This document shows, one piece after another, positions 2,855-11,247 of a stretch of 24,566 nucleotides of DNA; position 1 is the first letter of the stretch, and each line of letters begins with the position of its first letter. A model generated the notes under the pieces. The model was not told the origin of the DNA and made no database searches. It saw only the letters and a list, made by a program, of their open reading frames with translations. The stretch lies in IMG/VR virus record IMGVR_UViG_3300043409_000331, positions 1 through 24,566 of that record; one strand, written 5' to 3'. The stretch is from a virus. The position numbers and the translations under genes are program-made.

Positions 2855-3144
2855 TTAGCAACCTCTAAATAATTATTTTCGAATAATAAAGAAATTGTTT
2901 TTCTATGTGATTCCTCCCACATATCAACTCTTTCTTGTTTGTTAAGATTTTTTCCTTGGTCTAGCTCCATATGACAAATAAAACAAAGTGCAGCTATGCG
3001 ATAATCATGCGCTTTTATACCACGACCTTTACCATCTCGCAATTGGTTTGAATGAGCTGCGACAACAGTACCATCATCAATTCCACAATGCTGACAAGGG
3101 AAAGTTCTTACTTTTTCAAGTAACTTTTTGTTTCTGTAAAGCAT
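2851..3144 (-). CDS. YbcO-like (DUF1364) putative nuclease
   Basis: This is a 97-residue protein from the ATG at 3144; an in-frame GTG at 3165 lacks a ribosome site. The zinc-binding core is CQHCG at residues 17-21 and CFICHMELD further on. Between them lies the conserved VVAAHSNQLRDGKGRGIKAH block, typical of DUF1364/YbcO, a compact His-Me-finger-like phage nuclease family encoded near lambdoid recombination genes. It may process branched or damaged DNA. Its start overlaps the 3' end of the homing endonuclease gene by 29 bp. Its stop overlaps the DUF6496 start as ATGA. Confidence 0.8.
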   Translation of the reverse strand: MLYRNKKLLEKVRTFPCQHCGIDDGTVVAAHSNQLRDGKGRGIKAHDYRIAALCFICHMELDQGKNLNKQERVDMWEESHRKTISLLFENNYLEVAK

Positions 3145-3661
3145 ATCTTTTCTTTTGAGCCTCACTTTGACGTTTTTTTGTTTCTTCGCTTTTTTTTACT
3201 CCCAAATTAAAAGTAAGTAATTTTTTCTTTAATTCATCTGTCATCTTTCTTCCATACATTGGATGTTCTTTGCCAGTTGGATAATTGCCATGTTTTTTAC
3301 GGTCAGCATTATTATTTGCATGAGTGTCCCAACGTAAATTTTCTATTCTATTATCAAAAGCAATTCCATTATTGTGGCAACCTTCTTGTCCAATCTCTGG
3401 CATACCAACAAAAGCAAACAAAACTAACCTATGAACACCAATTGTAAATTTTTGCTTACTTATTCCTAAATGAACACTCATATGACCATATTTATCAGTC
3501 TTCGATGGTGAAAGAATTTTTTCTTTATATGTTTGCTCAACAATTTTATTATGCAAACCACAAAATTTTTTAATATTTCTTTCTTTAACTTTAATTCTTC
3601 CAAGGTTAGATGCCATATAAAAATCACCATAACCAGGTATGTTTTTCCAAATTTCTTCCAT
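3116..3661 (-). CDS. Free-standing HNH homing endonuclease with NUMOD4 domain
   Basis: The protein starts MEEIWKNIPGYGDFYMASNL, the classic NUMOD4 DNA-binding motif. It continues through VHRLVLFAFVG and the HNH_3 nuclease core CHNNGIAFDNRIENLRWDTH with the following NNADRKKHG. A Lys-rich C-terminal part ending in KKRYALQKQKVT includes GRKMTDELKKK, a NUMOD3-like DNA-binding repeat. The gene is visibly more AT-rich than its neighbours, as expected of a mobile homing gene. I favour the ATG at 3661 because GGAT precedes it and because NUMOD4 proteins begin with this motif; an in-frame ATG at 3733 would add 24 residues and overlap the upstream gene. It cuts a specific DNA site and so spreads its own gene. 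Confidence 0.85.
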   Translation of the reverse strand: MEEIWKNIPGYGDFYMASNLGRIKVKERNIKKFCGLHNKIVEQTYKEKILSPSKTDKYGHMSVHLGISKQKFTIGVHRLVLFAFVGMPEIGQEGCHNNGIAFDNRIENLRWDTHANNNADRKKHGNYPTGKEHPMYGRKMTDELKKKLLTFNLGVKKSEETKKRQSEAQKKRYALQKQKVT

Positions 3662-3725
3662 ATATTTATCCAGTGATGTTATTGAAATCAATGGAATTGT
3701 ATCATGAGTTAATTTGAAAAAATCC

Positions 3726-3911
3726 TTAGTCATCAATATCGTCTATAAGTCTTTGCAGGTAAACAGCCAAATCCATTGCTTCCTCTTGTGCGTGAATAAG
3801 CCATTGCTTTGCAGATAAGTCTGTACGCTCTGTGCTGACACCATACTTCATCATTCCAAACTCAGCTCGATCTGCTAGTTTTTGCCTGACTGCTTGCACG
3901 TTCTTATCCAT
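3726..3911 (-). CDS. Small MazG-like helical phage protein
   Basis: This 61-residue protein has the block KYGVSTERTDLSAKQWLIHA followed by QEEAMDLAVYLQRLIDD. It resembles short phage proteins with a single EExxDxxxY helix related to MazG/dCTPase-type all-alpha pyrophosphohydrolases. Only one acidic helix is present, not the paired ExxE and ExxD helices of a full MazG domain, so catalysis is uncertain. It overlaps the upstream gene as TAATG, and a full MazG-like protein is encoded elsewhere at 11651-11953. The homing endonuclease gene follows directly downstream. Confidence 0.65.
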   Translation of the reverse strand: MDKNVQAVRQKLADRAEFGMMKYGVSTERTDLSAKQWLIHAQEEAMDLAVYLQRLIDDIDD

Positions 3912-8053: not shown

Positions 8054-8155
8054 TTATTGGTAGCCGTTACAGTAGAAGGAACTGGCAGGACGGTAACGAA
8101 TCGTCTTTTCGGGAGCTACCCTAGCCATTCCATATCGCACCGCCAAGTACGACAC
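8054..8155 (-). CDS. Possible very small ORF, low support
   Basis: An open frame of 33 codons starts with GTG at 8155 and ends at TAA 8056-8054; an internal ATG at 8128 would give 24 residues (MARVAPEKTIRYRPASSFYC plus four). There is no convincing ribosome site for the GTG, while ATGGA stands just before the ATG. It fills the 124-bp gap between the zinc-binding small gene and the O-like gene, which is otherwise featureless. It may equally be untranslated leader. Confidence 0.25.
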   Translation of the reverse strand: MSYLAVRYGMARVAPEKTIRYRPASSFYCNGYQ

Positions 8156-9794: not shown

Positions 9795-10433
9795 ATGCGC
9801 CAGCAACAAGAGCAAGAAGAACAGCAACAATGGCTAGTCTACGAAAAACTGCAAAAAGCCCGTATCAGATTGCAGCACACAGAGCTAAAGAAGTCAGGCC
9901 ACAACAAATTTGCAGGATATAAATACTTTGAGCTTGGCGACTTTCTGCCAGCCATTCAGTCAATTTTCTTTGAGTTAAAACTTTGCCCTGTCGTTTCGTT
10001 TGGTACTGAGTTAGCTACTCTACGCATCATTGATACTGAAAATGGTGGCTGCGTAACGTTTACTAGCCCAATGGCAGAAGCGCAGCTAAAGGGGTGTCAT
10101 CCCATACAGAATTTGGGCGCAGTAGAGACCTATAGCCGCCGTTACTTATACGTCACAGCACTTGAGATAGTCGAACACGATGCAATCGATTCTAGCGAGC
10201 CTGTGTCAGCTAAACCGATTACAGTTGATGTGTTTGAGTCTATGCACAAAGAAGATCAAGAGACTATCCGTAGTATTGGCGTAGAAGCTATCTCATTGCT
10301 TGCAAAGAATGATATTGAAGGCGCAGTAGATTACATCAATGGATTAGACTTAGACGCAGATAGCAAAACAGCTCTTTGGTCTTTGTTTGATAGCAAGCAG
10401 CGCAGTGCAATTAAGAAGTTCACCACACGATAA
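9795..10433 (+). CDS. ERF-family single-strand DNA annealing recombinase
   Basis: This 212-residue protein matches the ERF superfamily, which pairs complementary single strands in phage recombination. A Gln-rich N-terminus precedes the core: KKSGHNKFAGYKYFELGDFL at residues 32-51, VTFTSPMAEAQLKGCHPIQN at about 87-106, and NLGAVETYSRRYLYVTALEI at about 106-125. The last two are the conserved ERF Gly and Tyr/Arg blocks. The C-terminal part is acidic, with EDQETIRSIGVEA and DLDADSKTALW, as in other ERF tails that contact partners. An SSB-like gene follows after 9 bp; VRR-NUC and other nucleases are on the opposite arm. Confidence 0.92.
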   Translation: MRQQQEQEEQQQWLVYEKLQKARIRLQHTELKKSGHNKFAGYKYFELGDFLPAIQSIFFELKLCPVVSFGTELATLRIIDTENGGCVTFTSPMAEAQLKGCHPIQNLGAVETYSRRYLYVTALEIVEHDAIDSSEPVSAKPITVDVFESMHKEDQETIRSIGVEAISLLAKNDIEGAVDYINGLDLDADSKTALWSLFDSKQRSAIKKFTTR

Positions 10434-10442
10434 AGGTAAATC

Positions 10443-10682
10443 ATGGCATACGATCCAAAACCAGGCAGCTTCTCACTTTTCAAGAATCAACAAAAGCAAA
10501 GCGATACACATCCTGATTACTCAGGCGATGGCAAAGACTTAAACGGTAACGCAGTCTATGTATCAGCCTGGCTCAAAGAAGGTAAATCCGGCAAGTTTAT
10601 GAGCTGCTCATTTAAGTTGAAGGAAGCAAAGAAAACAGTAGAAGAAAAACCGTTAGATATTGACGATATACCTTTTAATTAG
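10443..10682 (+). CDS. SSB-like protein with acidic IPF tail
   Basis: This 79-residue protein has GSFSLFKNQQKQSDTHPDYS and NAVYVSAWLKEGKSGKFMSC followed by SFKLKEAK. It matches a class of short phage proteins with a single OB-like beta sheet that are usually found next to recombination genes (DUF736-like). The C-terminus, LDIDDIPFN, closely resembles the DDDIPF tail by which bacterial SSB recruits repair and replication proteins, with one extra Asn after the Phe. The gene is coupled to the annealing protein upstream (a 9-bp gap holding AAAGGTAAATC). It likely coats or guides single strands for ERF. Confidence 0.65.
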   Translation: MAYDPKPGSFSLFKNQQKQSDTHPDYSGDGKDLNGNAVYVSAWLKEGKSGKFMSCSFKLKEAKKTVEEKPLDIDDIPFN

Positions 10683-10690
10683 AATGGGTC

Positions 10691-10725
10691 TATAATGGCT
10701 ATATTCTCCACACAAAGGATATAGC
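10691..10725 (+). promoter_or_regulatory. TATAAT box and hairpin that masks the HNH ribosome site
   Basis: TATAAT lies at 10691-10696. GCTATATTCT (10698-10707) pairs with AGGATATAGC (10716-10725) through ten base pairs, one a G-U, round an eight-base loop. The 3' arm contains the AAAGGA ribosome site and abuts the ATG at 10726. A transcript starting near 10703 would lose half of the 5' arm and free the site. No good -35 box is seen (a TTGACG is 25 bp away). Confidence 0.6.
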
Positions 10726-11187
10726 ATGATTCATTCAAAACAATGCTTTAAGTGTCTGGCCATCAAGCCACTAGATGAGTTTTATGCTCATTCAGCAATG
10801 GCTGATGGTCATGTAAATAAATGCAAAGAATGTAATAAAAAAGATGTTCTTGAGCATAGATTAAAAAATATTGAAAAAATACGTTCTTATGATAAAGAGA
10901 GATCAAAATTACCTGCTAGAAAAAAATTAGCAACTGAAGTAAGTGCAGCATGGAGAAAAGCAGACAAAAGACGAATAAAGTGTCATAACGCAGTTGCAAA
11001 GGCAATTAAATCTGGAGCTTTAGTTAGACAACCATGCTGTAAATGCAACTCATTAAAATCGTTAGCTCATCATGAAGATTATGACAAACCTTTAGACGTA
11101 GTATGGCTATGTCAGCCATGCCATAAACAAAGGCATAAAGAAATAAATAGATTGATGTTTGCACGCCTAGCCGGTAGTGGCGGGTAA
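10726..11187 (+). CDS. HNH endonuclease with N-terminal zinc finger
   Basis: This 153-residue protein has an N-terminal finger (C7xxC10 and C33xxC36 in KQCFKCLAIKPLDEFYAHS and CKECNKK), a basic linker, and a C-terminal HNH-like zinc domain: CCKCNSLKSLAHHEDYDKPL with LCQPCHKQRHKE (C104, C107, H115, H116, C129, C132, H133, H137). This layout is a common free-standing phage HNH type, likely a selfish or homing nuclease. The gene is AT-rich relative to the ERF gene and sits alone between the SSB-like and regulator genes, as an insertion would. A hairpin covers its ribosome site. The last residues (LAGSGG) run into a GC-rich structured stretch. Confidence 0.8.
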   Translation: MIHSKQCFKCLAIKPLDEFYAHSAMADGHVNKCKECNKKDVLEHRLKNIEKIRSYDKERSKLPARKKLATEVSAAWRKADKRRIKCHNAVAKAIKSGALVRQPCCKCNSLKSLAHHEDYDKPLDVVWLCQPCHKQRHKEINRLMFARLAGSGG

Positions 11188-11247
11188 CACCGGCAGCAGG
11201 GGCCAGATTCTCCTTCATGTATTCTCGAACTGGTGACCCTGCACTAC
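11170..11247 (+). other. GC-rich structured element after the HNH gene
   Basis: This short stretch is much richer in GC than the HNH gene. Complementary segments are GCCGGT (11170-11175) with ACCGGC (11189-11194), GCAGGG (11196-11201) with CCCTGC (11237-11242), CCAG (11203-11206) with CTGG (11230-11233), and GTAGTG (11174-11179) with CACTAC (11242-11247). The last pair encloses 74 nt. It does not meet tRNA rules. It could be a structured RNA or the scar of the HNH insertion. Confidence 0.4.

Follow-up and report, generated by a model that had tools for sequence, protein, structure and literature searches.

The leader of an apparently mobile HNH endonuclease gene, which lies directly behind the single-strand DNA-binding protein gene (ssb) of a virus, is probably a promoter-gated translational switch, as judged from its sequence and that of its relatives. 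Two RNA stems, one within the other, would close the start region of the nuclease gene on messages that read through from ssb, while RNA begun at a -10 box located between the strands of these stems would escape them. The architecture is conserved in about 105 leaders of the HNH family. The window, i.e., the whole stretch of DNA that was analyzed, corresponds to one strand of the IMG/VR record IMGVR_UViG_3300043409_000331, positions 1-24,566 (24,566 nt), and its relevant features are collected in Table 1.

Genomic context and mobility of the HNH gene

The genes erf, ssb and HNH follow one another in that order on one strand, and the SSB protein ends with the tail DIDDIPFN. Two CxxC pairs and several histidines form invariant columns in the HNH family. 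The structure of the HNH product was predicted with a pLDDT of 93, and its closest fold in the PDB is that of the beta-beta-alpha-Me enzyme Hpy99I; because this match is non-significant (E 0.15), the HNH identity is based on the PHROG match and on the motif. A Pfam search of the product did not match an HNH domain, and a PDB sequence search with it returned no match.

Table 1. Features of the erf-ssb-HNH region, in window coordinates.
Feature	Position	Strand	Basis
ERF-type ssDNA annealing protein gene (erf)	9795-10433	+	Pfam ERF 4.7e-11; PHROG 155 2.5e-22
ssb (single-strand DNA-binding protein) gene	10443-10682	+	PHROG 18154 3.9e-10; ORF list
Insert of about 475 bp, its ends known to within a few bases	10677-11151	+	Empty sites CCTTTT-TGATGTTTGCACGCC in L081-L101
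Outer stem, 5' strand TTAGAATGGGTC	10679-10690	+	Covarying pairs in the 63- and 89-sequence sets
-10 hexamer TATAAT, unpaired between both stems	10691-10696	+	Found in 98/103 leaders
Inner stem, 5' arm GCTATATTCT	10698-10707	+	Folding, covariation
Predicted transcript start, 7th base after TATAAT	10703	+	Purine in 88/103 leaders, no more conserved than neighboring columns; predicted
Inner stem, 3' arm AGGATATAGC, with Shine-Dalgarno AGGA at 10716-10719	10716-10725	+	Folding, covariation
HNH endonuclease gene, 153 aa	10726-11187	+	PHROG 2340 endonuclease 3.6e-33; CxxC pairs, histidines
Outer stem, 3' strand GATTCATTCAAA, in the coding sequence (from the end of HNH codon 1 to codon 5)	10728-10739	+	Covariation

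Comparison with related loci delimits an insert at the ssb stop codon, which comprises the promoter signal, the hairpin and most of the HNH gene. Among 21 relatives with ERF identities of 79-100%, the 3' end of ssb is empty in 20, where it reads CCTTTT followed by TGATGTTTGCACGCC or TAGAGTTTGCACGCC, and is occupied in the remaining one (L098). The final 11 codons of the HNH gene (MFARLAGSGG and the stop codon; 11152-11187) lie in the recipient's own flank downstream of the insert, and the empty-site relatives share this conserved sequence. Members of the family are also found directly after an ssb-type gene with an acidic ..DDIPF tail in L368-L392 and in the phage loci L279-L287, the genomes concerned being assigned to many phyla and including phages of Xanthomonas, Vibrio, Escherichia and Pseudomonas. 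In several of the Escherichia and Pseudomonas phages, the ssb tail is about 15 residues longer (FAPIGLQYG-like) and is overlapped by the HNH gene. Altogether, the empty sites, the covariance-model matches described below and the positions after ssb suggest that the gene moves to the 3' ends of ssb genes as one unit with its promoter signal and hairpin, and the HNH gene appears to be a mobile, putative free-standing homing endonuclease. Domain exchange is suggested by two loci (L109:4008-4415 and L136:3899-4306) that share this leader and the N-terminal zinc-finger half and in which the C-terminal nuclease half has diverged, the overall identity being 51-54%.

A further gene of the window, at 3116-3736 on the minus strand, encodes an unrelated endonuclease of the homing type (NUMOD4, HNH_3); upstream of it, no comparable promoter or hairpin was obvious on inspection by eye. 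An int-alpA RNA (RF02996) exceeds the gathering score at 8064-8131 on the minus strand, as it does in the relatives L081 and L083. A sub-threshold match to the Rfam Proteo-phage-1 RNA (23.7 bits, for a cutoff of 42) in the G+C-rich flank after ssb, at 11127-11198, was not reproduced in nine related loci.

Two stems around the start region

The original prediction was that of a ten-pair stem with one G-U pair, which contains the AGGA ribosome site and adjoins the ATG, with TATAAT directly upstream of it. Both elements were confirmed in the window. The inner stem comprises ten pairs, one of them G-U, around a loop of 8 nt, and its 3' arm ends one base before the ATG at 10726; the predicted energy of this hairpin is -9.9 kcal/mol, and none of 200 shuffled sequences was equally stable. 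Its described size did not hold, as an outer stem that extends into the first HNH codons had been missed. In class 1, the larger of the two classes of leaders defined below, TTARAAYGGGTC before the -10 box pairs with these codons, and TATAATG remains unpaired between the inner and outer stems. The outer stem of the window forms 11 of 12 pairs, with one A-A mismatch, and its 5' strand includes the ssb stop codon (10680-10682). No Rfam family matched the leader above its gathering score.

A stem of at least ten pairs abutting an ATG arose in 3 of 20,000 shuffled leaders and is found at 5 of the 878 ATG triplets in the window. Such single-sequence statistics are inadequate as proof, given that they establish the rarity of the stem, which is not decisive; the decisive evidence is comparative.

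Conservation and covariation of the pairing

The loci examined were 80 from IMG/VR and 80 more collected by profile, complemented by a scan for AAYGGGTCTATAATGG and by bacterial assemblies. The viral sets yielded 103 distinct leaders with a -10-like hexamer before the HNH gene, and three bacterial assemblies (L368-L370) provided three further leaders. Classes were assigned by the -10 pattern and its spacing, independently of the hairpin, giving 89 distinct leaders in class 1 and, identified through their -10 box, 14 in class 2. The HNH gene was directly downstream in 103 of the 115 placed matches to the 16-base motif; the other 12 are unremarkable, since about 28 matches would be expected by chance, as estimated from the size of the collection.

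Alignment of the leaders of related phages, which had been proposed as a check of the hairpin, has revealed compensatory changes in both arms among the 89 distinct class-1 leaders, and RNAalifold predicted both stems unaided. The outcome named as refuting the hairpin, a lack of conserved pairing in relatives, is clearly contradicted by these data. In a 63-sequence alignment, 92.8% of the cells were paired, as compared with 34-47% after sliding by 1-3 columns, and changes on both sides were present in 14 of 22 pairs. Double-change cells numbered 167, versus 39.5 +/- 7.5 in shuffles; none of 500 shuffles was as high, and none was as good on every pairing measure. Against a tree-based null, in which independent columns were simulated on the coding-region tree, five column pairs reached E < 0.05, all five inside the structure, these E-values being derived from 200 purpose-written simulations for sequences that are related to one another. 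Along the branches of the tree on which both sides changed, pairing was kept in 9 of 9 and 10 of 10 cases for two outer pairs, and in 14 of 14 for one inner pair. The leader of the Patescibacteria assembly L370 is fully paired with different sequences (TTAGAACTGTGC/GCACAGTTCTAA and GGCATAT/GTATGCC). Conservation is lower near the loop, as class-1 inner pairs 8-10 are kept in only 60-85% of the sequences, and in L179-like leaders the inner stem is reduced to 4 basal paired bases.

A covariance model of the leader matched HNH leaders only, in 588 kb of sequence that included many empty-site loci, and the sole marginal match (L060) is also an HNH leader. It detected exactly one site in each of the three bacterial assemblies (E 5e-17 to 3e-10), all three leaders being training sequences. 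The residues specified by the outer-stem codons vary (MIRS, MIHS, MVRS, MTRS, MARF, MVDS and others), and class-2 proteins are devoid of them. The first HNH codons thus seem to have been shaped by RNA pairing.

Class-2 leaders and predicted access to the ribosome site

The class-2 leaders, of the GGGTATAAT type, form shorter hairpins of unrelated sequences that bury the start codon in the same layout, and in several of them, such as L319, L363 and L162, bases of the -10 box pair with the start codon region. The mean folding z-score is -2.8 for class 1 and -3.7 for class 2, versus 0.17 for seven other gene starts in the window. Opening the region from the Shine-Dalgarno sequence to +6 is predicted to cost 12.3 kcal/mol in class 1 and 8.4 kcal/mol in class 2 on read-through RNA, as against 5.1 and 3.0 kcal/mol, respectively, on RNA that starts at base 7 after the -10 box, and access is predicted to be better from the local start in 88 of the 89 class-1 leaders and in all 14 of class 2. 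The protein tree is poorly resolved; a single supported clade of 57 contains both classes intermingled, and two class-1 leaders branch outside it, which makes gain, loss or exchange of leader types likely. An additional stem between the ssb tail and the block before the -10 box (CCCNTTTT/AAAANGGG) seemed paired in some class-2 leaders but was rejected, as its middle position was, by eye, mismatched in more leaders than it was paired.

Several loci depart from these patterns. Further arrangements of -10 box and hairpin are present in the Vibrio phages L280 and L287 and in L372, and L377 has a complete promoter (TTGACA-17-TAAGAT) and no hairpin over the Shine-Dalgarno sequence. L046 (2940-3005) combines an intact HNH frame with the loss of the -10 box and of both 5' arms, in whose place stands sequence similar to an empty 3' end of ssb; L047 and L048 have the full leader, and L046 may be a chimeric assembly. 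In L177 and L345, the leader at a contig end appears inverted, flanked by copies of the outer-stem repeat, which is probably a snap-back assembly artefact.

The -10 box and the question of a promoter

The hexamer is TATAAT in all but five of the 103 leaders, which have TATGAT or TATTAT, and TACAAT occurs among leaders outside this filter. It is located 1 nt before the inner 5' arm in 98 of the 103. Because it is unpaired in class 1, pairing cannot account for its conservation. The absence of a -35 box, recognized from the start as the weak part of the local promoter, extends to the whole set: at spacers of 15-19, the best candidates match 2-3 of 6 positions in 102 of the 103 leaders, with a maximum of 3-4 of 6. 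No extended -10 was found in the leaders either, and a promoter scan of the plus strand of the window found no sigma-70-type site; it is therefore the conservation of the hexamer that points to promoter activity. The predicted start, A10703, falls midway along the inner 5' arm, and the frequent purine at this position does not constitute independent evidence for a start site, since its column is conserved like its neighbors. A candidate phage-wide promoter motif, GGGTNTATAATGG, was discarded, as its only mismatch-free occurrence in the window is at 10686-10698 and weaker matches are at chance level. The 'late' timing that the parallel with phage T4 might imply has no support in the sequence: the consensus for T4 late promoters is TATAAATA and not TATAATGG, and a phage sigma factor was not identified.

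Proposed mechanism and alternative explanations

On mRNA reading through from erf and ssb, the inner stem, of about 10 pairs, would hide the Shine-Dalgarno sequence, and the outer stem, of up to 12 pairs, would join the stretch preceding the -10 box to the first HNH codons. Jointly, the two stems, whose pairing is indicated by covariation, would bury the entire start region and presumably silence the gene. RNA begun about 7 nt after the -10 box would be devoid of the whole outer 5' strand and of half of the inner 5' arm, and according to folding predictions its ribosome site is open because these 5' arms are missing. Production of the nuclease would then depend solely on its own promoter, with level and timing independent of the ssb operon. 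The empty sites show that leader and gene were inserted as a unit at the ssb stop codon. As this codon lies in the outer 5' strand, an SSB ribosome terminating there may disrupt the outer stem; the inner one, starting about 15 nt past the stop, should persist. The initial proposal that silencing would affect read-through mRNA only is supported by the covariation of the arms, the position of the -10 box next to the arm and the lack of a hairpin signal where there is no local -10 box.

An RNA hairpin that acts without a promoter, and merely lowers HNH translation on the ssb mRNA or couples it to that of ssb, with TATAAT kept for other reasons, appears unlikely. It could be opened by ribosomes finishing ssb, by a trans-acting protein or by temperature, and both the missing -35 box and the ssb stop in the outer 5' strand, where the terminating ribosome would stand, are in line with it. 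However, the inner stem starts past the footprint of that ribosome and is sufficient to hide the Shine-Dalgarno sequence. Moreover, all variants of the unpaired hexamer (TATAAT, TATGAT, TATTAT, TACAAT) conform to the -10 pattern, and the hexamer adjoins the hairpin in class 2 as well; no hairpin signal was detected (mean z -0.15) in the 19 members of the family that have no local -10 box.

It is considerably less probable that selection acts on an inverted repeat in the DNA, to which the HNH protein would bind as to an operator or cruciform, or which it would cleave. The repeat does flank the -10 box, and I-TevI represses its own promoter through an operator that overlaps the late promoter (PMC2988022), but the arm sequences diverge widely among close homologues, with the pairing preserved. 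In addition, G-U (G-T in DNA) combinations outnumber A-C by 273 to 39 over both stems, which fits one RNA strand and not duplex DNA, so that the conserved structure is one of sense-strand RNA. An additional operator may be present within the invariant block. Finally, a chance hairpin beside an unrelated AT-rich hexamer, for which the five ATG triplets with comparable stems in the window might speak, is refuted to near certainty by conservation and covariation in 63-89 distinct leaders, by the shuffles, none of which was as good, and by the matches in the three bacterial assemblies, whose leaders belong to the training set.

Beyond the promoter-gated switch in this virus, opinion is evenly balanced on a more general reading, in which a mobile nuclease family specialized on ssb 3' ends would carry a portable, start-gated translation switch that has been rebuilt repeatedly. 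Taken as a whole, this reading would have the first codons of class 1 evolve chiefly as part of an RNA stem that encloses the -10 box, part of the class-2 -10 box pair with the start codon, and the members without a -10 box of their own lack the hairpin. If true, such a switch would represent a general solution for genes that parasitize early operons, and no peculiarity of T4.

Comparison with known systems

The logic of a promoter combined with a hairpin has been described for I-TevI, I-TevII, I-TevIII, segB, mobE of Aeh1 and gene e of T4 (PMC2988022, PMC3014915). I-TevI, encoded in the td intron of T4, is similarly a homing-type endonuclease embedded in the transcript of another gene, with a ribosome-binding site that is buried on upstream-initiated transcripts and a promoter immediately upstream that yields RNA without the 5' arm (PMC2988022, PMC3014915). 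It differs in being an intron-encoded GIY-YIG enzyme that is expressed from a T4 late promoter and whose control has been proven by experiment, whereas the system of the window, as read from sequence, is a free-standing HNH gene behind ssb, with TATAATGG as its -10 box and an outer stem that reaches into the coding sequence. The parallel with I-TevI drawn in the original prediction thus stands for the ribosome site buried in read-through RNA, may extend to the local promoter and the translation of its transcript, and fails for the T4-type late promoter; because TATAATGG replaces TATAAATA, the leader is classed as working like that of I-TevI, and not as a T4-type late-promoter case.

Closer in gene type is mobE of the Aeromonas phage Aeh1, a free-standing HNH gene whose ribosome-binding site is sequestered by an RNA hairpin with a promoter nearby, according to the account in PMC2988022 of the work of Gibb & Edgell (2007, 2009); it lies in the ribonucleotide reductase gene of a T4-like phage, and the comparison is one of descriptions. 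In T4, segB, e and soc also have a hairpin over the translation start on read-through transcripts (PMC2988022, PMC3014915), and the late promoters of gene e lie within the 5' strand. These genes and their promoters are different ones, and e and soc are not mobile nucleases. With respect to the target, the nearest likeness is T4 segG, a free-standing homing endonuclease gene located between genes 32 and 59, the product of which targets gene 32, an SSB gene; by contrast, segG encodes a GIY-YIG enzyme in a promoter-less cassette for which a hairpin switch is not described (PMC2988022).

A literature search, with most subscription papers outside its scope, found no paper on the leader of this HNH family. 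The family offers a setting in which intron splicing is not at stake, and its dozens of natural variants, including the class-2 hairpins, the promoterless members and L046, represent material for testing why mobile nucleases would need silencing on read-through mRNA. Control of endonucleases by a promoter in a hairpin was earlier associated with a few T4-like phages, and the present leaders add evolutionary support for it from many phages of environmental samples. That this logic, known from T4-like phages, would also operate in an unrelated, ssb-targeting HNH family is well supported by the comparison of its leaders.
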